This document shows, one piece after another, positions 12,977 to 44,216 of a DNA stretch of 62,279 nucleotides. The notes below the pieces were generated by a model. That model ran no database searches and was not told where the DNA came from. It saw nothing but the letters and a program-made list of their open reading frames with translations. Numbering within the stretch: the first letter of the stretch is position 1; each line of letters opens with the position of its first letter. The stretch covers positions 1 through 62,279 of the IMG/VR virus record IMGVR_UViG_3300032116_000190. One strand, given 5' to 3'. Origin of the DNA: a virus. The translations under genes were made by a program, and so were the position numbers.

Positions 12977-13423
12977 ACAATAAACTATTTTGAAGAACAC
13001 ACTCAACATCTTGCCCTTGATTCACTACTGCTACTAGGGGCACGTTCTAGTGTATTCATCAAAATAGTCTAATATTATTTAGTCTATTTCTTACAAAGCC
13101 TGAGATTACAGCCTTAAACGAGAGTCTTTGAGTTGTACCGAATCCCTTGCGAGGACCGTTGACTCGTTATCCACTAACGCCTTTTACGGTCAGTTAGTAA
13201 CTCTCAACGCTGCCTTTTTTGACGAGTGGCGTTTCTCGTGTCATAACATGCTATTCGTCCTTCATTCTTTCGTCAGCCTTGCGGGCTGTTCAAGGTCGCT
13301 AAACCCTTACGCCTTCATTCCGAACAACTACTTCTGCCTTGCGGGCTTCCGTAGACCACATTGCCTTGCGACTGTGGTATTAAGCGTCTTTCACATGTTA
13401 CCGGAGCAGTCTTTCGCTTTTTA

Positions 13424-13499
13424 TGGTTGCATAGATAGGAGTTGAACCTATTACCTACATTACATCAAAATGTTGCTCTACCGAATGAGCTACAATGCG
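13424..13499 (-). tRNA. tRNA-Ile(GAT)-like element inside the giant RNA
   Basis: Anticodon, D and T arms are intact (loop TTGATGT) and CCA is encoded. The acceptor has two mismatches (C1xA72 and U6xU67) and position 37 is G. It may be functional after processing, or a structural tRNA mimic. A second, canonical tRNA-Ile(GAT) lies at 24981. Confidence 0.6.
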
Positions 13500-13949
13500 A
13501 AACCTACCAAGATGTGCTGCTCCAGTTGCTTCATAGCTTGTTAGCTACAAAATACAACACACCTCATGTCTTTTGCCTTGCGGGCTACTCAACCATACTT
13601 CACGATTCCAGAGCAAGTGTCCTCTTTCACCGTTTGTATTGCTATCTCGCCTTTCCTTGCAGGGTCAGACTCAATAACTACCTGTTAACTTTCAGTACTC
13701 GTCAGTTTGGCTGCACATCGTGAGGGCGCCAACCCTCTTAGCTACTCACCGATTTGGCTCTGTAGCCTATCCCTTCGGACGACATACCTGACTTACTACC
13801 TACCGCCTTCGTCAGACGGGCCTTTCGGCTAGTTCAGGCTTGCATAGATGGACTTGTATTGCTACAAGCGCAAGTGCGTAGGCTTTCTTGCTTTGACAGA
13901 GATTACTCCCTGCTACCCTAGTGAGGCTATGCCCCCAATTCTTAATTCA

Positions 13950-16325: not shown

Positions 16326-16694
16326 TTAACAAAACGTTTTAATTGCTTTTAAATCTTCACCGATCATATCTTCACTTAGTGGACCGATACCAAGACAAGT
16401 CGTAGTAGGTTCCTTAAAGACAGTGAATCCTTTGTCAGTGATTAGTTGTGTAGCGCATACGTCATTGTATGCTTTTTGAAGCTCCTGTAGCTGCTCTACA
16501 GTGTCTACAATCAAGGTAATCTTGAATGAGTGTCCACTGTCTAGATAAGCTTTAGCAAGCTCCGGAGTCTCTGCCATAGCGTTCATGAAAGTATGCAAGT
16601 AAGCATGACCTGCTTGCGTACACATTTTACCACGAACCCCGTTAATTTTGTCTACAGATTCTTTTGCGAAAACGCAATACATCTTATATTTCAT
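16326..16694 (-). CDS. pth2: Peptidyl-tRNA hydrolase, Pth2 type (122 aa)
   Basis: Sequence and length (about 120 aa) match archaeal/eukaryotic-type Pth2: RGKMCTQAGHAYL (basic residue, Q and H typical of the active region), the KITLIVDTVEQL strand, and TTCLGIGPLSED near the C terminus. The enzyme releases peptides from peptidyl-tRNA that drops off ribosomes. Its place inside a tRNA array suggests recycling of phage tRNAs. The downstream tail IKTFC is short. Confidence 0.8.
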   Translation of the reverse strand: MKYKMYCVFAKESVDKINGVRGKMCTQAGHAYLHTFMNAMAETPELAKAYLDSGHSFKITLIVDTVEQLQELQKAYNDVCATQLITDKGFTVFKEPTTTCLGIGPLSEDMIGEDLKAIKTFC

Positions 16695-16860
16695 CAGACT
16701 CTACCTTAATTGCTACGTAGTCCATTTGAGGACGTAGCGTTTTTCTTTTCTCAACAAGTGCTAATGCTTCTTCTTCGGAATAGAACTTAGCATCAGGCCA
16801 TGACGAGAATGGCGTGCCGTTGATCGGTATAGTCTTAGATACTACAATCCATTTAGTCAT
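16684..16860 (-). CDS. Small hypothetical protein (58 aa)
   Basis: MTKWIVVSKTIPING, a short alpha/beta sequence. The ATG overlaps the TGA of the upstream 53-aa gene and its end overlaps the start of pth2, suggesting translational coupling. Function unknown. Confidence 0.6.
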   Translation of the reverse strand: MTKWIVVSKTIPINGTPFSSWPDAKFYSEEEALALVEKRKTLRPQMDYVAIKVESDEI

Positions 16861-17018
16861 TTTCTTGGCTTTCGATTGCCGTAATGATTTTTCCAAGCTT
16901 CGTCTGTGTAGGCAGGTCCATGTCTACTCAAGAGAAGTTCTCGTTCTTGAGGATCCATCATGATCCACTCCTCGTGAGTATAACGCTTGCCTGACTTAGC
17001 TAATGTCATAGCTGGCAT
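16857..17018 (-). CDS. Small hypothetical protein (53 aa)
   Basis: MPAMTLAKSGKRYTHEEW with AAAGGAG seven bases before the ATG. Overlaps the next gene by four bases. Function unknown. Confidence 0.6.
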   Translation of the reverse strand: MPAMTLAKSGKRYTHEEWIMMDPQERELLLSRHGPAYTDEAWKNHYGNRKPRK

Positions 17019-17034
17019 GTTATTCTCCTTTATA

Positions 17035-17109
17035 TGGTAGCCCGAACGGGTTCCGACCCCGCTTCTCTTGGTTGAGAACCAAGTGTCCTAGCCACTAGAC
17101 GACCGGGCC
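17035..17109 (-). tRNA. tRNA-Glu(CTC)
   Basis: Anticodon loop TTCTCAA and encoded CCA. The T-loop is GTCGGAA, so the invariant T54 is replaced by G, and G1-U72 and G7-U66 are wobbles. Confidence 0.8.
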
Positions 17110-17129
17110 ACAGTGTTGTGTCAAGAGTT

Positions 17130-18347
17130 TTACCCCTTGACACAAACTACCTGCTTCAACGTATGCACGATATCTACAAGGTCAAACTGTGCAGCCATAA
17201 CTGCATCAATGTCCTTGTACGCCTTCGGCGTTTCGTCAATAACGTCTGCGTCCTTTCGGCACTCAACCCCTGCCGTAGCAGCGATATGGTCCTCAAGAGT
17301 GAAACGCTTCTTCGCTTCGGTACGGCTCATAGAGCGTCCTGCACCGTGTGAACACGAACAGAACGATTCACGATTACCCTTACCACGAACGATGAATGAC
17401 TTTGCACCCATTGAACCCGGGATAATTCCCATTTCGTCCTTCTTAGCGGACACTGCACCCTTACGAGTAACAAGAACGTCCTCACCGAAGTGCTTTTCGT
17501 GCGATACATAGTTGTGGTGACAGTTAACTGCCATCAACTCACTATAGAACGGCTTCGTGATCACTGAACGGATAGCAGCAATAGTTGCTTCCATCATTAC
17601 TTCACGGTTGCTACGAGCAAACTTCTGTGCCCAAGACACTGCCTGCATGTAGTCGTTGAAGTGATCAGTGCCTTCCGGCAGATACGCAAGGTCCATATCC
17701 GGAAGATTGATAAACCACTTACGCATATCCTGCTTCGCAAGTTCAATGAAGTAGGAACCGATACGGTTACCAATACCACGAGAACCTGAGTGCAGCATGA
17801 TCCAAACGTAATCATCTTCATCAAGACAAATCTCTACGAAGTGATTACCAGAACCAAGCGTACCCAAATGATGAGGCGCACGTTCTGCTGCCTGACCAAT
17901 CTTAGGATGCTTAGCTACGATTTCAGCAAGACCAGCCGCATGTGCAGTAAACTTAAGTGCAGCTTCGCTAGAAGGAACACCGAATGCACCACGGTCATTC
18001 TTGCCACCATTGTCAGTACGACCATGCGGCACTCGTGCTTCAATTGCAGAGCGAATGCCAAACAGGTTGTCGGGCAAATCTTCTGCACGAAGATTGGTCT
18101 TGTGCGCCATCATACCGCAACCGATATCAACGCCGACCGCAGCAGGGATGATTGCATTCTTGGTCGGAATAACCGAACCAACAGTCGCACCCATTCCCCA
18201 GTGAACATCAGGCATAATTGCTACGTGCTTGTGGATAAAGGGCATAGAAGCAATATTGTCAAGCTGGGCGCGGGCTTGATCCTCAACGGTCACGCCGTCG
18301 ATCCATGCCTTAATAAGACCACCCTTGTTTCCTTGAATTACTTGCAT
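17130..18347 (-). CDS. rtcB: RtcB RNA ligase
   Basis: The 405-residue protein shows the full set of RtcB motifs: MPDVHWGMGATVGS, GVDIGCGM, GSGNHFVE, HSGSRGIG, NCHHNYVSHEKHFG and the guanylylated-His region CSHGAGRSMSR. RtcB joins 2',3'-cyclic-phosphate ends to 5'-OH ends, using GTP and Mn2+, and can reseal tRNAs cut by anticodon nucleases. It lies between tRNA-Lys and tRNA-Glu, both common targets of such nucleases. A repair role is the natural reading. Confidence 0.95.
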   Translation of the reverse strand: MQVIQGNKGGLIKAWIDGVTVEDQARAQLDNIASMPFIHKHVAIMPDVHWGMGATVGSVIPTKNAIIPAAVGVDIGCGMMAHKTNLRAEDLPDNLFGIRSAIEARVPHGRTDNGGKNDRGAFGVPSSEAALKFTAHAAGLAEIVAKHPKIGQAAERAPHHLGTLGSGNHFVEICLDEDDYVWIMLHSGSRGIGNRIGSYFIELAKQDMRKWFINLPDMDLAYLPEGTDHFNDYMQAVSWAQKFARSNREVMMEATIAAIRSVITKPFYSELMAVNCHHNYVSHEKHFGEDVLVTRKGAVSAKKDEMGIIPGSMGAKSFIVRGKGNRESFCSCSHGAGRSMSRTEAKKRFTLEDHIAATAGVECRKDADVIDETPKAYKDIDAVMAAQFDLVDIVHTLKQVVCVKG

Positions 18348-18409
18348 AACTACTTCCTTTAAAAATGGATGGGCAGTTTAACGTCTTACCCAGGACCCTA
18401 CATTAAAAA

Positions 18410-18485
18410 TGGTAGACGATATAGGGTTCGAACCTATGACCTAAGGATTAAGAGTCCCGCGCTCTACCAACTGAGCTAATCGTCC
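18410..18485 (-). tRNA. tRNA-Lys(CTT)
   Basis: Loop CTCTTAA, encoded CCA, GTTCGAACC T arm; C27xU43 at the base of the anticodon stem is unpaired. Confidence 0.88.
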
Positions 18486-18579
18486 ATAAATATCGTTACA
18501 AGCAACAAGAAGCCAGGACACCTAGCAATTCAGCAATATACGAAATCCCACTCGGGGCTTCTCGTCACTTGATATACTA

Positions 18580-18608
18580 GATATACAATACTTCTTGTTG
18601 CTTGTCAA
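18580..18608 (-). promoter_or_regulatory. Promoter of tRNA-Lys/rtcB
   Basis: TTGACA, 17 bp, TATATC. The leader downstream can form a 7-bp stem AGAAGCC/GGCTTCT before the tRNA. Confidence 0.75.
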
Positions 18609-18616
18609 CCGAAAAA

Positions 18617-18877
18617 TTAAACAAGTTCAATTGTGATTACATCGTACTTGTGCTTGATAGCAGGGCCCCAGCGCCAATCGGGCTGTTCGTAGGACCAACG
18701 CTTCACGAGCTTAGCAACACCCTTTTCAACAAGGGACAACGCGGCTTGCTGCTTAGCAAGACTGCGCTTAATGCGACCGTCTGCATTAACATCAATCTGT
18801 GTGGTACCCCGGTGTTCAAGAGTCCACTGCATGTAGTTGACAAGTTCTTGTTCAATCTTCTTAAGCTTGACAGTCAT
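18617..18877 (-). CDS. Hypothetical protein (86 aa)
   Basis: A helical N terminus, then TTQIDVNADGRIKRSLAK and a Trp-rich tail. Own promoter and ribosome site. Function unknown. Confidence 0.65.
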   Translation of the reverse strand: MTVKLKKIEQELVNYMQWTLEHRGTTQIDVNADGRIKRSLAKQQAALSLVEKGVAKLVKRWSYEQPDWRWGPAIKHKYDVITIELV

Positions 18878-18902
18878 TTCATTATCTCCTTGCTATATAT
18901 TT

Positions 18903-18931
18903 GTTATAGCAAAATGGGCAAACAATGTCAA
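18903..18931 (-). promoter_or_regulatory. Early sigma70-type promoter
   Basis: TTGACA, spacer TTGTTTGCCCATTTTGC, TATAAC. Confidence 0.85.
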
Positions 18932-18940
18932 CCAATTTTT

Positions 18941-19441
18941 TTAGATTTTGAAAGTTTTTCTGATATGATGAAACGCTTCCATGTTTCCACGAACATCGTC
19001 TAACGGATCATGGGTATGCTTAGTGATTCTAAACTTCTTCCAAGACGTATGGTCCCTGATATTCTTATTGCATCCTGCATAAAGATCACCGATACGTCTA
19101 GCACTGAATCCAAAAGGGTTTCTACCTTCATAAGTGTGCATCAACCAGTTAATCCACTGCCAATCAAATGCGGGATTATCAGACCAAAAAACACAACGAT
19201 CAAATTGTGATAGCCAGTCACTGAAACGCTTAGCTTCTGTGACAAAACTACCAGTATACTCCTGATGCTGTTCTCTAGTCAACTTAAGTGCGTTGTATGC
19301 ACCTTGGTCAAAATTGGAAAAGATAGGGGAAAACTTGTCAGATACGAAAGTTTTCCCATTCTCTGCGATTGCCGCAAATTCAATCAAGTCGCCCATTGTT
19401 GGGCAAGGACCTGACGCTTCACAATCTACGATAATATTCAT
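18941..19441 (-). CDS. DEDD-family 3'-5' exonuclease (166 aa)
   Basis: Exo I is IIVDCEAS (Asp6, Glu8), Exo II is FWSDNPAFDWQWIN, and HTHDPLDDVRGN supplies the DEDDh His/Asp of Exo III. Such enzymes trim DNA or RNA 3' ends using two metals. Its position near RNA-repair genes and next to a HAD gene would fit end trimming of RNA, but a DNA substrate is equally possible. Confidence 0.8.
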   Translation of the reverse strand: MNIIVDCEASGPCPTMGDLIEFAAIAENGKTFVSDKFSPIFSNFDQGAYNALKLTREQHQEYTGSFVTEAKRFSDWLSQFDRCVFWSDNPAFDWQWINWLMHTYEGRNPFGFSARRIGDLYAGCNKNIRDHTSWKKFRITKHTHDPLDDVRGNMEAFHHIRKTFKI

Positions 19442-19809
19442 ACTGTTTCCTTTCGGCAGTAGACCTCTTCGCTGTAGTAACCATTTGATTCACCAAGGAA
19501 CCGAATCGTCACATAACCCTTGTAGGTTGCGAAGTTATAGAACGTCCACGTATAGCTTTCGCCATTGCAGGTTCCTGGATCTTCTGCATTAGTATCTTCA
19601 CGAGAAATCAACAGCGGAAGGTTTTCTAAGTCTTCCAAATCACCGATGATTTCTTCTACGTACACCGATTCACAGCAGTCAGTATCGTGATAAAGTACAT
19701 AACGCACTTCATCATTTTCAAACGTAACTGTATCGTTAGTTGCACGAACCGAGGTGAAGGTTTGGTTCAGCATTTCGTCAACAGTCACATGATTATCATA
19801 CCAGCCCAT
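19438..19809 (-). CDS. Conserved phage protein, DUF7448-like (123 aa)
   Basis: The central HDTDCCESVYVEEIIGDLEDL is a pattern that I associate with a short conserved phage family; a SYTWTFYNFATYKGYVTIRF barrel-like segment follows. It overlaps the exonuclease by four bases. Function unknown. Confidence 0.6.
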   Translation of the reverse strand: MGWYDNHVTVDEMLNQTFTSVRATNDTVTFENDEVRYVLYHDTDCCESVYVEEIIGDLEDLENLPLLISREDTNAEDPGTCNGESYTWTFYNFATYKGYVTIRFLGESNGYYSEEVYCRKETV

Positions 19810-19827
19810 AACCTTCTCCTTTCATTC

Positions 19828-19856
19828 TTTATATCAGTTCATAGTCAATATGTCAA
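19828..19856 (-). promoter_or_regulatory. Early sigma70-type promoter
   Basis: TTGACA, 17 bp, TATAAA; drives the 123-aa gene and exonuclease. Confidence 0.75.
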
Positions 19857-20307
19857 GAGCCGAATCAAAATGATGCTCTTTAATTCCCAGCCCATCTTCA
19901 ATGTGGATTAGATTAGCAATGTCGCTAAACTTTCTATCATCAAAACATACCCAACTTGTGTCACCGTGATGCTTAATCCAATCCTCAATCGCAACTAATC
20001 TTCCGATGCCACGTACCGGGCTGTTTACCTTACTGTAGTCAATCCTAGGAAAGATTGTGCGCCAGTTAGAATGAACAAACTTTTCATCAAGTCCCCATTC
20101 AACTAGGTCTTCTCTAAGATCGCCGCCCATCCAGTCTTCATAGTTGTGCATACTGTTAGTAACAACCTTAGCACCAGTCTCCTCGCACAGCAAGTTCAAA
20201 TATGCAATTGAGTTAGAACTATATGTAGTGCGGTATACGCTTTCATATACCGGAACATCAATGGGAATTACTGGACCATCAATATCTAAAAAAATTACCT
20301 TATTCAT
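19834..20307 (-). CDS. HAD-family phosphatase, RNA-repair (SAK) type
   Basis: FLDIDGPV gives the DxD of HAD hydrolases (Asp8, Asp10), VVTNSMHN is motif II and VCFDDRKF motif IV. The architecture matches the HAD domain found in swiss-army-knife RNA-repair proteins and as a stand-alone phage protein. It likely removes phosphates from RNA ends or related nucleotides. The gene overlaps the downstream end of the ADP-ribosylglycohydrolase gene by eight bases. Confidence 0.65.
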   Translation of the reverse strand: MNKVIFLDIDGPVIPIDVPVYESVYRTTYSSNSIAYLNLLCEETGAKVVTNSMHNYEDWMGGDLREDLVEWGLDEKFVHSNWRTIFPRIDYSKVNSPVRGIGRLVAIEDWIKHHGDTSWVCFDDRKFSDIANLIHIEDGLGIKEHHFDSALDILTMN

Positions 20308-21184
20308 TTGTTAACTTATCTACCAATTCAATAAAACGTGCTGTGTCGTAAAGCTTATCAAGCCACATGATCGGGATACCTGACATACCATAGAAAGCAC
20401 CTGCAATTTGCCCTGTAACTGCTGCTACAGTGTCGGCATCTTCACCAAGATTAGTAGCAAGCAGAATAGCATCACGGAAGTTATCAGTGTTCTTGAAGCA
20501 CCACAGAGCAGCGTGAAGCGTATGAATGACGTAGCCCGAACTCTTGACTTCATCACGAGATACATCAAGTGTAGTGAGAATGTTCTTAACACTATCTGCC
20601 CAATGATCCTGAGGGTCAATGTTCAATACTGCGTTCTTATCATCAGTGACATATGCAGTCAACAGCACCCTAGCAAGCAAATCGCAACTGTCACAGGCTT
20701 CTACAGAGCCGTGTGTAGTTTCGCCCTGCATGATAGCAGTAGCAATTGCCATATCATTGTCAGTGTGATACTTGATCACCGCAGGGGCGAGGCGCATAAT
20801 AGAACCATTACCTGCGTCCCAAGAACCAGTGTTGTTCAATACACTACCGGTAGTCTCCCAATTTACGATTGCAGAACTAGTAGTAGCACCAATATCAAAG
20901 CAGCGACCGGTCGGGCTATTCACTCCTTCACGATACCACTTGCTAAAACGATTCAGTAAATCATTTCTATCAAGCTGAGGATGTTCAATCAGACTTTCAG
21001 CGAGACACAATGCCATGCTAGTATCATCTGTGAAATATCCTGCGGGAAGATTGAACGGGCCCTTACCTACCATATCAGTTACAGGTTCAAATGTGTCGCG
21101 GGCACGGAACTCAACTGTAGTACCTACAGCATCACCGATTGCGAGGCCCAAGAATGAACCTAAAAGCCTGTCTTTAACTTGCAT
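20300..21184 (-). CDS. ADP-ribosylglycohydrolase (DraG/ARH family)
   Basis: The 294-residue protein has the family signature YFTDDTSMAL (Thr52-Asp54), GNGSIMRLAP in the middle and LGEDADTVAAVTGQIAGAFYG near the C terminus, supplying the two-metal site. These enzymes remove ADP-ribose from proteins or nucleic acids, or split related ADP-ribosyl compounds. Immediately upstream lies a probable ADP-ribosyltransferase, making a write/erase pair plausible. Confidence 0.88.
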   Translation of the reverse strand: MQVKDRLLGSFLGLAIGDAVGTTVEFRARDTFEPVTDMVGKGPFNLPAGYFTDDTSMALCLAESLIEHPQLDRNDLLNRFSKWYREGVNSPTGRCFDIGATTSSAIVNWETTGSVLNNTGSWDAGNGSIMRLAPAVIKYHTDNDMAIATAIMQGETTHGSVEACDSCDLLARVLLTAYVTDDKNAVLNIDPQDHWADSVKNILTTLDVSRDEVKSSGYVIHTLHAALWCFKNTDNFRDAILLATNLGEDADTVAAVTGQIAGAFYGMSGIPIMWLDKLYDTARFIELVDKLTNE

Positions 21185-25606: not shown

Positions 25607-25990
25607 TTATATATTTAGATGCTGTTTAGCGTTTTCAATATAACCTTCAATTCGTTCCTTACCGACAGGATTCATAGAGTGAACTACGTATCGGGGAAAC
25701 TTAAAGCCATTGTCAGCACAATAATCAACTAACCATTTAGCACAATCATATCCAGTCTTTTCAGGACCATAATCGGCTTCTTTGCCTTCTGTTTCTGCAA
25801 GCATTGCAACATAGTGCTGGTCAGCAAGGTCATGATCAAAGCAAACGAACATAGGAACACCATACGTAGTTACTTGCTTTACAAAGCCTTCATAGCCACG
25901 AATGATATAGATTGTCTCGTACCGAGGGAATTGAACCCAATCAACTTTGTCGGGCATTCGCTCATCATCTAAAAACAGTACGTAAGACAT
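25607..25990 (-). CDS. Cyclic-phosphate-processing receiver-like (cREC) protein
   Basis: The 127-residue sequence follows the cREC pattern: LFLDDERMP at the N terminus, CFDHDLAD in the middle, KTGYDCAKWLVDYC, then VHSMNPVGKERI. This receiver-like family was defined by comparative genomics of RNA-repair systems, where it is thought to act on cyclic-phosphate RNA ends. RtcB and HAD genes in the same array support that context. Biochemistry of the family is not established to my knowledge. Confidence 0.75.
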   Translation of the reverse strand: MSYVLFLDDERMPDKVDWVQFPRYETIYIIRGYEGFVKQVTTYGVPMFVCFDHDLADQHYVAMLAETEGKEADYGPEKTGYDCAKWLVDYCADNGFKFPRYVVHSMNPVGKERIEGYIENAKQHLNI

Positions 25991-39483: not shown

Positions 39484-40545
39484 TCACAGCGCAAGGTGAC
39501 TGTAATCGTAAAGTGCCTTATCCTTGACACGGGTCAGGATGAGACGGGCGCCCTTGCTTTCAAAGACAAACTTACCTTCCTGACTGTTCAGGTTGATAAG
39601 ATTTTCAGGAGTAAAGCGAAGGTCCTTCCACTCTGCTTCATCATCGTTAGGATCAGTGTCATATTCAATGTTGACACCCTTGACGGCAAGCGGGTTGCCT
39701 CGCCAAATCTCAGGGGAGACAGAGGAGATTTCCCTTCCACCGTCAATCAACTTGATTTCGTACTTAGCACCTTCATCATACTCGGGCTTGGCGTTGAGCA
39801 TTTCAAGTGCTTCCGTCGGAGTCTCACCGTAACGATTCATTTCTTCAACAAGCGCCTTAAGCATGTCAAAGTTGAATTCACCAAACAAGCTAGTGAGTGA
39901 ACAAATCTGATCAATGTACTGCTTGTTGTTGAGGTTATCTTCACAGTACTCACGAATGAAGTTAACGTCAAGACCCTTGAAGTCAAGCAGGTAGAAGATA
40001 CGACCAGGACGATTACGCATGTGCGAGTCAACCCGCCACTTGTCATTCACAGTGAGAACATACAGCTTCTTAGAACCGAACACGCCGTCAAGCAGAGTAA
40101 GAATTTCTTCCTGCTTTTCGCGGTCATAGACCTTCTCAAATTCGTCAAAGAGAACGACACACGGCTGGTCAATGTCCTGCAACAGCTTGAAGAAGCCATC
40201 ACCAGTCCAATCACGATTGATAACAATCGTAGGGACACCCTGCTTAGCAAGTTCAACAGAAATGTTCTTAGCAAGAAGCGTCTTACCAGAACCCTTTTCA
40301 CCGTTCAACAGAACACCGGTCTGCTGCGGACGGTCCCAAAAGCTATTGATAATGCGATCCGTGTGTCGCAGGGTATTACCATACATCTTAGCAGGAATCT
40401 CAAAGCTATCAATCTGCTCAAGATAGAAGTTGCCCATCATATCTACAGCAACAGTGTAGTTGCCTGCAGGAAGCTGCTCATGCAAATCCATTGCCTCCTT
40501 GCTGGAAACACGGAAAGTAGTACCATTCTTCAAAAAGTATGCCAT
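39484..40545 (-). CDS. AAA ATPase (353 aa)
   Basis: Walker A GEKGSGKT (82-89), Walker B VVLFDEFEK, sensor-1 VLTVND and an Arg-finger region RNRPGR are in order. A 75-residue N-terminal domain and a beta-rich C-terminal domain (from about 270) flank it. Members of this type remodel protein or DNA complexes; the partner is unknown. Confidence 0.8.
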   Translation of the reverse strand: MAYFLKNGTTFRVSSKEAMDLHEQLPAGNYTVAVDMMGNFYLEQIDSFEIPAKMYGNTLRHTDRIINSFWDRPQQTGVLLNGEKGSGKTLLAKNISVELAKQGVPTIVINRDWTGDGFFKLLQDIDQPCVVLFDEFEKVYDREKQEEILTLLDGVFGSKKLYVLTVNDKWRVDSHMRNRPGRIFYLLDFKGLDVNFIREYCEDNLNNKQYIDQICSLTSLFGEFNFDMLKALVEEMNRYGETPTEALEMLNAKPEYDEGAKYEIKLIDGGREISSVSPEIWRGNPLAVKGVNIEYDTDPNDDEAEWKDLRFTPENLINLNSQEGKFVFESKGARLILTRVKDKALYDYSHLAL

Positions 40546-40552
40546 AGTATCC

Positions 40553-40876
40553 TCAAAACTTCAACAGGTTAAACGCAAGCAAGATATCTCGCTTATCTTC
40601 ATCAACAGGGTGGACTGCGATTGCAGTCATTTCACCACCATTCAAGTCTGGCTCAATAAAATATTCGTACTTGATACCAAACTCAAACAGAATCTTTTCA
40701 ACCGCCTGTAGGGCTTCTAGGTTGCGAACACCCACGCAAGTGAAGTAAGTGTTGTCTGGATCTTCGGTTGAGCCAAGCTTAGCCCCCAGCTTCATAGCAA
40801 CGTGTGCAGTCTGCACAAGTTGGTACTCGCGGAAGATATCCTGACGGGTAAAAAAGTATGCGTATCGTTTTGTCAT
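40553..40876 (-). CDS. Pth2-superfamily-like protein (107 aa)
   Basis: FFTRQDIFREYQLVQTAHVAMKLG and YFTCVGVRNLEALQAVEKIL follow the strand-helix plan of Pth2 proteins, but the catalytic Lys/Gly-rich motifs differ. It may be a diverged relative without hydrolase activity. It lies upstream of the AAA gene by seven bases. Confidence 0.5.
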   Translation of the reverse strand: MTKRYAYFFTRQDIFREYQLVQTAHVAMKLGAKLGSTEDPDNTYFTCVGVRNLEALQAVEKILFEFGIKYEYFIEPDLNGGEMTAIAVHPVDEDKRDILLAFNLLKF

Positions 40877-40924: not shown

Positions 40925-42301
40925 TTACTTGTTACTGTTTGCCCGAATTTCGTCAAACGTCATGTCACGGATAAGCTTGCCCATGCTGTAAACAACTTCA
41001 AGCACATCCTGATCCTTAACATCTTCGTAAGCAGCATCTTCGGTAGTGACAGTCTTGAAACCATTGTCAGTTTCAATTAGGACCATACGACCCTTCTTGC
41101 TGCGCTTGCCCTTGTCAGTGATTGGGTCCTTGAAAACGTCAACCCATTCACCGTTGATAAAGGCAGCCGAACACTTCATAGCAAACTTCTGATCGTCACG
41201 ATTGACAATCTGCAACAGTGCGCCGCCCTGTCCGAAAGCCACATTGTCTGCACTGTAGCCTGCAAGCGTGATAGTGTAGAGAATGCTACGAATAGTCTGG
41301 TGATTGATGCCGTCACCCTGCAAGACACGAACATTGTTCAGTACCTTGAAGCCCTTGTCATTGACAGTGTGACCAAAGTACTTGTCAAGAATCTTGAGAC
41401 ACTTAGCGACAACATCTGCCGGGTCACCACTGTCGGGACGAACAACAAGAGTTGCACCACTGTCAAGCACATCCTGCTTCAACTCGGTGCCCCACTTTTC
41501 ACAAGCAGAGAAAATGTCATAGCTGTCAGAAACAGCAGCAACAAGACCGCCGGGCTTAGCATTCTGCTTGAGCATATTGCGATAGCTAGCAACTTCGCCT
41601 TCACGGCCCCAGCTAGTTACAGTGCTGTGTTCCATGGCAGGAATACTGAACCCAGCCATATCAGCACCATAGTAACGACGAGCAAAAAGCAAAGCTTCTA
41701 CCGTATCAGTTCCCTGGAAGTTAACAAGGTGTGCAGCGCCACCAATACCAGCACTCTCAAGACTGGACACGCCACGAGCGCCAAAGTCATGAAGTTTGAA
41801 ATCAATCGTGCTGGGGTCGCCAGTCTTTTCAAGATATTCAAGAATCAACTTCTTGCTCTGATAGCTGTTGGTAGCAACAGTAGTCGGATACCAAATTGCA
41901 CGAAGCAACGCAGTCTCAAGGAAGCTAGTCAACCAGTAGCACTCAGGATCCATGTTGACAATAGTAGCGAGAACATTGCGAGTACCAACTACTGTACCTT
42001 CGGGAACAGCCTTGATCGTAACAGGAAGCTTACCGCCATAAGTGTTGACGATATATTCCCAACCTTCACGATTGAAGGGCTCACCATGTGCAGTGATGAT
42101 AGCTTCGGCTTCGTCAATCATTTCCATCGTCACCGGAGTCAGCATGTACTCCTTGATGAATGCTTGAAGACCGAAGAACACAGTAGCGTCATGAACGCCA
42201 CCGCGGCTTTCAATGTAACTGTAAATGTATTCAGTACCTTCGGGGTACTGATTGAACTGGCTATACTTGTAGCTGTCCGAATTAAGAATGATGTTATGCA
42301 T
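40925..42301 (-). CDS. nadV: Nicotinamide phosphoribosyltransferase (NAMPT)
   Basis: The 458-residue protein has DSYKYSQFNQYPEGTEYIYSYIESRGG at the start, HDFGARGVSSLESA, the catalytic-loop His in MEHSTVTSWGREGE and VVRPDSGDP, all typical of NAMPT. It makes NMN from nicotinamide and PRPP. With the downstream NMNAT it forms a two-step route back to NAD, known as NARP2 in phages that resist NAD-depleting defences. Confidence 0.95.
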   Translation of the reverse strand: MHNIILNSDSYKYSQFNQYPEGTEYIYSYIESRGGVHDATVFFGLQAFIKEYMLTPVTMEMIDEAEAIITAHGEPFNREGWEYIVNTYGGKLPVTIKAVPEGTVVGTRNVLATIVNMDPECYWLTSFLETALLRAIWYPTTVATNSYQSKKLILEYLEKTGDPSTIDFKLHDFGARGVSSLESAGIGGAAHLVNFQGTDTVEALLFARRYYGADMAGFSIPAMEHSTVTSWGREGEVASYRNMLKQNAKPGGLVAAVSDSYDIFSACEKWGTELKQDVLDSGATLVVRPDSGDPADVVAKCLKILDKYFGHTVNDKGFKVLNNVRVLQGDGINHQTIRSILYTITLAGYSADNVAFGQGGALLQIVNRDDQKFAMKCSAAFINGEWVDVFKDPITDKGKRSKKGRMVLIETDNGFKTVTTEDAAYEDVKDQDVLEVVYSMGKLIRDMTFDEIRANSNK

Positions 42302-42356
42302 AATAGAACTCCTCTATTTAAAAATGCTAGCTTCTATCAGCTAGACTTGATGATTG

Positions 42357-42385
42357 ACTATAACGAATCTTTAGTAGAATGTCAA
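42357..42385 (-). promoter_or_regulatory. Early promoter of NAMPT
   Basis: TTGACA, 17 bp, TATAGT. It overlaps the end of the macrodomain gene. Confidence 0.75.
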
Positions 42386-42864
42386 CCAAATTCTACCAAA
42401 GTTACTGATCCGCCCTGTGCGGAAATCTTTTCAGCGAAGTCTTCCAACATCGCAATGATACGGTCCTTATCGCCACCTGCAAGTCCCATACCGATATAAG
42501 GGAAGCCGATTTTGAAGGGGCCATATTCTGCTGCCATCTTCTTAAGAATGACTTCAAACGAAGCATACTCAAAATGGTCAACGTCACGGGGTGCAAAGTT
42601 AATTTGCGTATATGCGTTGATGATAACAAACTTATCGGTCACATGGGCAGAAATATTGCCAAGCTTTTGGACTTGACTATTTCCACTGTCCTGCAGGTCT
42701 AGGGTATAAGCTGTATCAGCTTCATACGCTTTTGGATATCGCTCACGAATCTCCTTAGCGATGCCAGAACCCATAGTGTTTAGGCAGTTGCATCCATGAA
42801 CGATTACATCAAACTCACCCTTCTCTGCGAGGTCAATGAGATTACCTTTAGTGTGCTTAAGCAT
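42382..42864 (-). CDS. Macrodomain protein (160 aa)
   Basis: VIVHGCNCLNTMGSGIAKEI and FPYIGMGLAGGD are the two ADP-ribose-binding loops of Poa1p-like macrodomains, which dephosphorylate ADP-ribose-1''-phosphate or remove ADP-ribose. Located between NAMPT and NMNAT, it fits ADP-ribose salvage or reversal of ADP-ribosylation. Confidence 0.85.
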   Translation of the reverse strand: MLKHTKGNLIDLAEKGEFDVIVHGCNCLNTMGSGIAKEIRERYPKAYEADTAYTLDLQDSGNSQVQKLGNISAHVTDKFVIINAYTQINFAPRDVDHFEYASFEVILKKMAAEYGPFKIGFPYIGMGLAGGDKDRIIAMLEDFAEKISAQGGSVTLVEFG

Positions 42865-42866
42865 GA

Positions 42867-43913
42867 TTAAAGCCCCAAGAAATACTGAATGATGAAGTAG
42901 TGGTCGTCAAAGAAATCTTCTTCACGAAGTTCGCTGATTGGAACCCACTTTGCCTTTTCAGCATCATCGGCACCTTTCACCTTAGGCAGCGTAACATCAT
43001 CTGCCAACTTGAAGTGATATGCCTTCGTGATAACACGACCGAGCGTAGAACGATACGGATCGTCAAACGTTTCATGGTCACGAATGCTACCACGCAGCAC
43101 AGCCTCAGGAACCTTAATCTTCGTTTCTTCACGGAGTTCACGAATAGCACCATCAAGCTGCTTTTCATACTCGTTCAAGTGACCGCCGGGCAATGCCCAT
43201 AGACCCTTACCAGGTTCCGAACGGCGCTTAACAAGCAGGATGTGTCCGCTCTGTTCAACAACTGCGTCAACAGTGGCGTGCTTCACGGGATAGGGCGAAA
43301 CTTCCCACTGCTTCTTGTAGTCACGGACAAACTTAAGTTCATTGTGAAGTTGCACGTAAGTATCGGTACCACGAAAATCCATGAGAAACTTAACGACACT
43401 CATAGGAACCGTCTGATTAGACAGAAACCCTCGCTCTAGGTACTGTTCACGAATCTCTGTAGCGTGAAGATCATTCTGAATTTCAACATTCACCGACTTA
43501 TACTGCGGGAACATCTTAAGATAGTAGCTAGTGTTATCCTTACTAGCGCCAATCAATCCGACCTTAGCGTCATTGTAGCCGCTTGCTCTCCAAGAGGTGA
43601 AGTTATTGACAACATCAAGTGCAGTATCAAGCACGATGGTCTGCACCTGCTTAATCCAGGCTGCATCATTATAAGTCTTGTCATAGAGAGGCTTGATGAT
43701 GAGGCGTTCACTATCGGTGAATGCTCCTTCAATCATCTGCTTACGTTCATCAAACGTGAACGGATTTCGGATCGTGCGGGCCTTGCCAGCAGAACCTACT
43801 AGAACTAATACATTGCGGGATTTTTGTAGCGCAATATCAATGATGCGCTTATGTTCATTATGAAAGGGCTGAAAGCGCCCAACAAAGACCAGAAGGTCAA
43901 ACTCTTTTTCCAT
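42867..43913 (-). CDS. nadM: Bifunctional NMN adenylyltransferase / Nudix hydrolase
   Basis: Residues 1-170 hold the nucleotidyltransferase motif GRFQPFHNEH (12-21) and a late STxxR-like segment. Residues 205-348 are a Nudix domain: GGHLNEYEKQLDGAIRELREET is the Nudix box. The layout matches slr0787 of Synechocystis and NatV of phage KVP40. The first half makes NAD from NMN; the second probably hydrolyses ADP-ribose. Confidence 0.93.
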   Translation of the reverse strand: MEKEFDLLVFVGRFQPFHNEHKRIIDIALQKSRNVLVLVGSAGKARTIRNPFTFDERKQMIEGAFTDSERLIIKPLYDKTYNDAAWIKQVQTIVLDTALDVVNNFTSWRASGYNDAKVGLIGASKDNTSYYLKMFPQYKSVNVEIQNDLHATEIREQYLERGFLSNQTVPMSVVKFLMDFRGTDTYVQLHNELKFVRDYKKQWEVSPYPVKHATVDAVVEQSGHILLVKRRSEPGKGLWALPGGHLNEYEKQLDGAIRELREETKIKVPEAVLRGSIRDHETFDDPYRSTLGRVITKAYHFKLADDVTLPKVKGADDAEKAKWVPISELREEDFFDDHYFIIQYFLGL

Positions 43914-43969
43914 TGCTCAAAACTCCTTTGAAGCGATTTATATAGAAAGTCTATCTTTCTACAAACTTA

Positions 43970-43998
43970 TTTATACAAGGAAAGCCGGGTAAAGTCAA
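43970..43998 (-). promoter_or_regulatory. Promoter embedded in a terminator-like hairpin
   Basis: TTGACT, 17 bp, TATAAA; the -35 region lies in the hairpin AGCCGGGTA/TACCCGGCT that ends the upstream gene. Confidence 0.65.
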
Positions 43999-44021
43999 GA
44001 ACTTTCTCTACCCGGCTACCC
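43981..44021 (-). terminator. Terminator hairpin
   Basis: AGCCGGGTA/TACCCGGCT with a 17-base loop followed by TTTCCTT, just downstream of the 63-aa gene. Confidence 0.55.
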
Positions 44022-44024
44022 ATT

Positions 44025-44216
44025 TTATTCAATTACAGGATTGGTGAAGGTTACTAACCTAGTCCCGCCCGGCACCCGCCGTACACCGTCAGGAGCAGTC
44101 CAAGAAGCATCATCATCTTCATCAAGATCGCGCCAATCATCCCACACATCTTTCATTGCTACCGGTACAATATACCAATGACCACTGTTGTCACGATCAA
44201 GAAAAAACTGTTCCAT
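44025..44216 (-). CDS. Small conserved phage protein (63 aa)
   Basis: MEQFFLDRDNSGHWYIVPVAMKDVWDDW is a pattern recurrent in short phage proteins. Acidic centre, no motif. Own early promoter. Confidence 0.65.
   Translation of the reverse strand: MEQFFLDRDNSGHWYIVPVAMKDVWDDWRDLDEDDDASWTAPDGVRRVPGGTRLVTFTNPVIE

Follow-up and report, generated by a model that had tools for sequence, protein, structure and literature searches.

Among described systems, the closest to the locus studied here are NARP2 and the NadV/NatV pathway of phage KVP40, in which a nicotinamide phosphoribosyltransferase (NAMPT) and an NMN adenylyltransferase (NMNAT; the NadM-Nudix protein) convert nicotinamide into NAD+. Phage gene neighbourhoods combining NADAR, NadM and NadV are also on record (Iyer et al. 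2022, PMC9503650). At the RNA level, two riboswitch classes are cis-acting elements located 5' of NAD genes, and for both of them action at the level of translation is assumed: the nadA motif (NAD+-I), restricted to Acidobacteria, and the pnuC motif (NAD+-II), found 5' of pnuC in Streptococcus and made up of P1, P1a and a possible pseudoknot (PMC7749635, PMC8632094). The chemistry of NAD synthesis in such phage units is already known; we came across no description of its regulation in phages. The whole stretch of DNA analysed here (hereafter, the window) corresponds to a virus record of 62 kb and belongs to a tRNA-rich phage. It carries the same enzyme pair as NARP2 and KVP40, and we read the locus as a NARP2-type phage NAD+ salvage unit to which a macrodomain and control by a leader RNA have been added, a reading to which, taken as a whole, we give a probability of roughly 0.7.

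The NAD salvage genes and the conservation of their order

The sequence-only reading had recognized a cluster of NAMPT, macrodomain and NMNAT-Nudix genes at 40925-43913, and all three were confirmed as full minus-strand open reading frames with conserved catalytic motifs. NadM-Nudix (42867..43913, minus strand; 348 aa, complete) combines an NMN adenylyltransferase and a Nudix hydrolase in a single polypeptide. Pfam searches detected its CTP_transf_like and NUDIX domains, its top PDB relative is the bifunctional NMNAT/Nudix protein 2qjo (6.4e-71), and it has an intact GRFQPFHNEH motif at aa 12 and a Nudix box at aa 243-266. The Nudix fusion highlighted earlier is therefore present, but we rejected it as a novelty because it is the standard NadM architecture. 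Only 2 nt separate the NadM stop codon from the start of the macrodomain gene (42382..42864, minus strand), which encodes a complete, stand-alone protein of 160 aa belonging to the Poa1p/TARG1/DarG class; the gene has no GGAG Shine-Dalgarno (SD) sequence, and its translation may be coupled to that of NadM. After a further 80 nt comes NAMPT (40925..42301, minus strand; 458 aa, complete), which matches the Pfam families NAPRTase (7.1e-59) and NAMPT_N (5e-30), the PHROG NAMPT family (4.4e-162) and, as top PDB relative, the Xanthomonas-type NAMPT 7yqo (E 7.7e-177). It retains all of the HDFGARG, GTDT, EHS and RPDSGD motifs. Namat, the NARP1 enzyme, has an aromatic clamp motif, GSx(S/T)x..TRD (PMC12774641). 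At this site the window protein reads GGALLQIVNRD, lacking the aromatic motif, which rules out Namat and identifies a PRPP-type NAMPT; the pair formed with NadM consequently fits NARP2 chemistry. Both defining components of NARP2, a PRPP-type NAMPT and an NMN adenylyltransferase (here NadM-Nudix), occur in one unit, and their intact motifs uphold the NARP2-like route from nicotinamide to NAD that had been predicted.

Several other elements flank or punctuate these genes. A 107-aa ORF without assigned function (40553..40876, minus strand) lies 3' of NAMPT, a proximity that many of the closest relatives preserve, and an AAA ATPase gene (PHROG_2376; 39484..40545, minus strand) is found downstream of the unit in many relatives. 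At the macrodomain stop codon, 5' of the NAMPT leader, a sigma70-like promoter match (TTGACA-17-TATAGT; 42357..42385, minus strand) agrees with the consensus only, such sites being no more frequent than in shuffled sequences. By eye, a GC-rich hairpin and a promoter-like TTGACT-17-TATAAA were seen at 43914-44025 (minus strand), directly 5' of the NadM leader. Elsewhere in the window, 44 (ARAGORN) or 45 (Rfam) tRNA genes were counted. The tRNA array includes a GOLLD RNA (RF02032, E 1.4e-52) with a tRNA-Ile (13097-13565, minus strand), and genes for PTH2, RtcB, HAD_SAK_2, ADP-ribosylglycohydrolase and cREC (16326-21184 and 25607-25990, minus strand), with the HAD_SAK_2 gene overlapping that of the ADP-ribosylglycohydrolase. 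A megablast search for a near-identical named phage gave no match.

The location of the macrodomain between NadM and NAMPT, already pointed out from the sequence, proved to be widespread. Comparing the window genes with IMG/VR relatives by tblastn, we found the order NadM-macrodomain-NAMPT in 34 of 61 NadM clusters (97% identity), a recurrence indicating that the position of the macrodomain is not due to chance; another 17 of the 61 had NadM and NAMPT without it. The macrodomain-bearing clusters correspond to three groups at 60% identity. Other genes between NadM and NAMPT vary among relatives whereas the macrodomain is constant. These additional genes are mostly small ORFs without assigned function and endonuclease-like genes, for which reason we rejected genomic context as a proof of macrodomain function. 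In the macrodomain tree, proteins encoded in this slot fall mainly in one clade, within which several entries labelled 'other' correspond to cut contigs or moved copies, among them the macrodomain of Synechococcus phage B23, located ~23 kb from the B23 NAMPT. When a concatenated query was used to search for the three-gene order in 50,697 phage records, the 60 best places held only the two-piece NadM and NAMPT arrangement, so that cultured phages showed no example of the macrodomain-containing order. A NADAR gene occupies the slot in phage B23 (L099:3536-4063) and in one IMG/VR locus (L049:7063-7590), the latter having NADAR and macrodomain together, which is consistent with the NADAR/NadM/NadV neighbourhoods described in PMC9503650. 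Two further arrangements were observed. Rhodobacter phage RcXuper (L100) has RNA ligase and polynucleotide kinase genes directly upstream of NadM. The NAMPT genes of some relatives (L048, L050, L051; L047, L049, L063; L070-L072), read by eye, are interrupted at three catalytic motifs, with an intein-like in-frame insert between RPD and SGD, an HNH-like ORF between FGA and RG, and a GIY-YIG-like ORF near EHS; group I introns were discarded for these genes since no Rfam match reached the gathering score.

A structured leader RNA tied to NAD genes

Although the three genes delimited earlier do form a cluster, the regulated unit reaches upstream to position 43965, where the leader RNA of NadM begins. 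This RNA is about 51 nt long and consists of two simple hairpins. Copy 1, 5' of NadM (43914..43965, minus strand; covariance model E 7.7e-9), has the hairpin TGTAGAAA[GATAGAC]TTTCTATA followed by the SD hairpin TCAAA[GGAGT]TTTGA, and copy 2, 5' of NAMPT (42300..42348, minus strand; E 1.7e-5), has CTAGCT[GATAGA]AGCTAG followed by AATAGA[GGAGT]TCTATT. Across relatives both hairpins covary, the first around an invariant A(U/C)AGA loop and the second with the GGAG Shine-Dalgarno in a 5-nt loop, immediately 5' of the start codon; spacing 5' of NAMPT is conserved in diverged phages. RNAalifold predicted both hairpins independently, with a first loop AUAGA closed by a G-C pair, and single-sequence folds of the two window leaders gave the same structures. 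An SD hairpin of at least 4 bp was present in just two of the 42 window genes tested, NadM and NAMPT.

In a set of 126 leaders, RAYAGA was located 27-40 nt 5' of the start codon in 100, 84 of which have 5-7 of 7 flanking positions paired, and 62 of the 126 formed strict hairpins, whereas mononucleotide shuffles gave 0.7 on average and never more than 3. For 61 leaders, all 13 base pairs show changes in both partners, and the covariation score reaches 0.855, whereas shuffles give 0.193 (sd 0.017) and slid-partner controls ≤0.179. Pairing counts are inflated by the selection of alignments A2 and A3 for paired stems, a selection that the slid controls share only in part; both types of control, together with the 126-leader counts, limit this inflation. 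Because stem selection inflates these percentages, the unselected 126-leader counts and the blind tests of the covariance model (R1) weigh more.

Within the window, R1 recovered the two leaders and one fragment at E 6.3. In 32 phage records of up to 379 kb, most element-bearing records have two matches, almost always 5' of NadM or NAMPT even when these genes are widely separated, and those located far from NadM in three of them (G015, G016 and G019) turned out to be NAMPT leaders, found blind; roseophage DSS3P8 has exactly two matches, which are both leaders. A third copy in phage G017 precedes a 114-aa ORF followed by NadA (Pfam 2e-78). This NadA (quinolinate synthase; L142:255-1196, minus strand) has a NADAR gene nearby. 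A scan of 80 viral NAMPT loci retrieved a NAMPT-leader match in 66, including 48 of the 62 contigs not used before. Another 43 matches at these loci comprised 19 upstream of NadM by motif, 16 upstream of NadM-like genes by eye and 8 preceding small ORFs. Behind the leader RNA we also observed two recurrent families of small proteins (some 108 and 118 aa; L139:84-410, L215, L197; L210-L212, L214, L167), candidate NAD-related genes.

The element is not confined to phages. For 80 NAMPT loci taken from genome records of bacteria and archaea, R1 made 68 matches (E≤1) in 46 loci, individually weak (most with E 0.01-1), the case for them resting on position: 34 are NAMPT leaders, 31 are NadM leaders by motif and one (L304) is a further NadM leader on the other strand. 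Of the remaining two, one is followed by a 77-aa ORF, with NadM about 260 nt downstream of the leader, and lies on a possibly viral contig of a Nitrosarchaeum MAG (L274); the other (L247) has an ambiguous reading frame. Both leaders were recovered in Xanthomonadaceae and other chromosomes, and bacterial and archaeal loops read GATAGAC or GACAGAC. In ten whole genomes, matches at E≤0.1 were NadM and NAMPT leaders plus one chance match. The match G025:C77 in a Sulfurovaceae MAG was dismissed as chance, since its loop is changed and no gene lies directly 3'. R1 scans found no leader in KVP40 (E≤1), nor in ACP17, BcepSauron, phiM7, Mx1 and others. As KVP40 reportedly possesses a working NAD salvage pathway (Lee 2017, cited in PMC9503650), the pathway does not depend on this RNA.

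The leader is thus a real structured RNA tied to NAD genes. It is probably also undescribed: searches of the two window leaders with Rfam 15.0 (4227 models) returned, at E≤10, nothing but unrelated matches below threshold, leaders from six chromosomal or MAG loci had none at gathering score, and we found no published account in the open-access literature, a scope that leaves out most subscription papers. We read it as a translational regulator of NAD salvage, either a riboswitch or a protein-bound operator, which would act through the SD hairpin, the signal being either an NAD metabolite or a protein that binds the RNA. A more specific proposal, which we make tentatively, is a third class of NAD-metabolite riboswitch that restrains nadM and NAMPT translation until NAD falls, the macrodomain being co-regulated through its coupling with NadM; if so, the phage would remake NAD only when an NAD-depleting defence fires. 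There is also an appreciable chance, though short of an even one, that the leader is an operator for a phage or host protein (e.g., feedback by NadM or NAMPT) instead of a metabolite riboswitch. A length of some 51 nt, a pair of simple hairpins and a single invariant 5-nt loop are typical of a protein site; however, its retention 5' of the same genes in phages and distant bacterial chromosomes suits a shared metabolite, as does the copy 5' of the NadA-containing stretch, although a widespread protein could do likewise.

Class and possible substrates of the macrodomain

Similarity of the macrodomain to Pfam Macro is slightly above cut-off (4.7e-05), and PHROG_335 matches at 1.2e-43. Yeast Poa1p is its top sequence relative among solved structures, and its predicted structure (pLDDT 89.8) resembles Bacteroides BT1257, DarG, TARG1 and Poa1p, with which last three classes it shares the fold and the GCN...GSGIA / GLAGG loops. 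The resemblance to DarG macrodomains (Z about 18 for the predicted structure) might evoke an eraser of DNA ADP-ribosylation that shields phage DNA from DarT, which we nevertheless regard as very improbable. TARG1 and DarG use a catalytic lysine, which we take to be the lysine after Thr (K80/K84). When PTKKHW of Mycobacterium tuberculosis DarG is aligned with AYTQ of the window protein, Gln87, invariant in 35 of 35 phage macrodomain sequences, stands opposite that lysine, which makes DarG/TARG1 chemistry unlikely. The window protein combines the fold of the Poa1p class with a histidine at position 23, as in Poa1p itself; many relatives have Gln at this position, so that a Poa1p-like mechanism is not conserved. 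Our best guess is that the macrodomain clears small 1''-linked ADP-ribose derivatives.

These derivatives might come from tRNA repair, which could frequently release ADP-ribose phosphates in a phage carrying some 45 tRNA genes. The sequence proximity to Poa1p, an ADP-ribose-1''-phosphate phosphatase, favours this origin, as do the RtcB, cREC, ADP-ribosylglycohydrolase and HAD_SAK_2 (RNA-repair phosphatase) genes of the window, which bear out part of the tRNA-repair link proposed earlier. No partner enzyme emerged: in 24 phage records KptA stayed below cut-off and sirtuin was absent, which led us to reject both as macrodomain partners, and cREC occurred in only 9 of the 24, without tracking the macrodomain. 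Moreover, to our knowledge RtcB ligation alone makes no ADP-ribose phosphates. On balance, we consider a tRNA-repair role rather unlikely. A further proposal is that the macrodomain binds or destroys NAD-derived immune signals (Thoeris cADPR isomers or His-ADPR), in such a way that the unit would couple NAD repair with signal removal. Iyer et al. (PMC9503650) propose that the main role of phage macrodomain and NADAR proteins is to counteract small ADP-ribose signals, a macro-type Thoeris exists (PMC11204291), and NADAR replaces or accompanies the macrodomain in the slot of B23 and L049. However, nothing in the macrodomain sequence tells the binding of signals apart from other kinds of ADP-ribose chemistry, and this role, too, appears doubtful to us.

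The proposed unit and its relation to known systems

Judging from orthology and intact motifs, NAMPT would combine nicotinamide and PRPP into NMN, which the NadM domain would adenylylate to NAD+. The Nudix domain would most likely cleave ADP-ribose into AMP and ribose 5-phosphate, possibly feeding PRPP synthesis. The macrodomain, co-inherited and probably co-translated with NadM, would handle ADP-ribose derivatives, most likely converting small 1''-linked ones (e.g., ADP-ribose-1''-phosphate) into ADP-ribose for the Nudix domain. NadM and NAMPT would each be under translational control by their own copy of the same leader RNA. By analogy with published NARP2 work, it is plausible that the unit serves in counter-defence. 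The sequence-only reading had thus captured an NAD pathway with an extra gene for ADP-ribose handling, a gene that proved to be conserved, but overlooked the leader RNA of NadM and NAMPT. This covarying RNA, present at nadM and NAMPT in both phages and bacteria, offers a direct handle on NAD sensing and predicts that NAD repair is turned on by NAD loss. It also serves as a tag for genome mining, having led us to NAMPT genes far from NadM, to NadA and to recurrent small protein families.

Compared with NARP2 and KVP40, the window unit differs by the macrodomain inserted between the two genes and, in the case of KVP40, by the leader RNA, present in the window and absent from that phage. With the phage NadM/NadV/NADAR neighbourhoods it shares an ADP-ribose-processing gene beside NadM and NadV, although the slot gene is a macrodomain in the window and NADAR is the one named in the available text of PMC9503650. 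Like NAD+-I and NAD+-II, the leader lies in cis, 5' of NAD genes, and presumably acts on translation; it differs from both in its tandem hairpins, in its conserved bases, in its location 5' of nadM and NAMPT, and in its distribution across phages and several bacterial groups. Set beside the published description of the NAD+-II pnuC motif, with its possible pseudoknot at the ribosome-binding site, its structure appears distinct.
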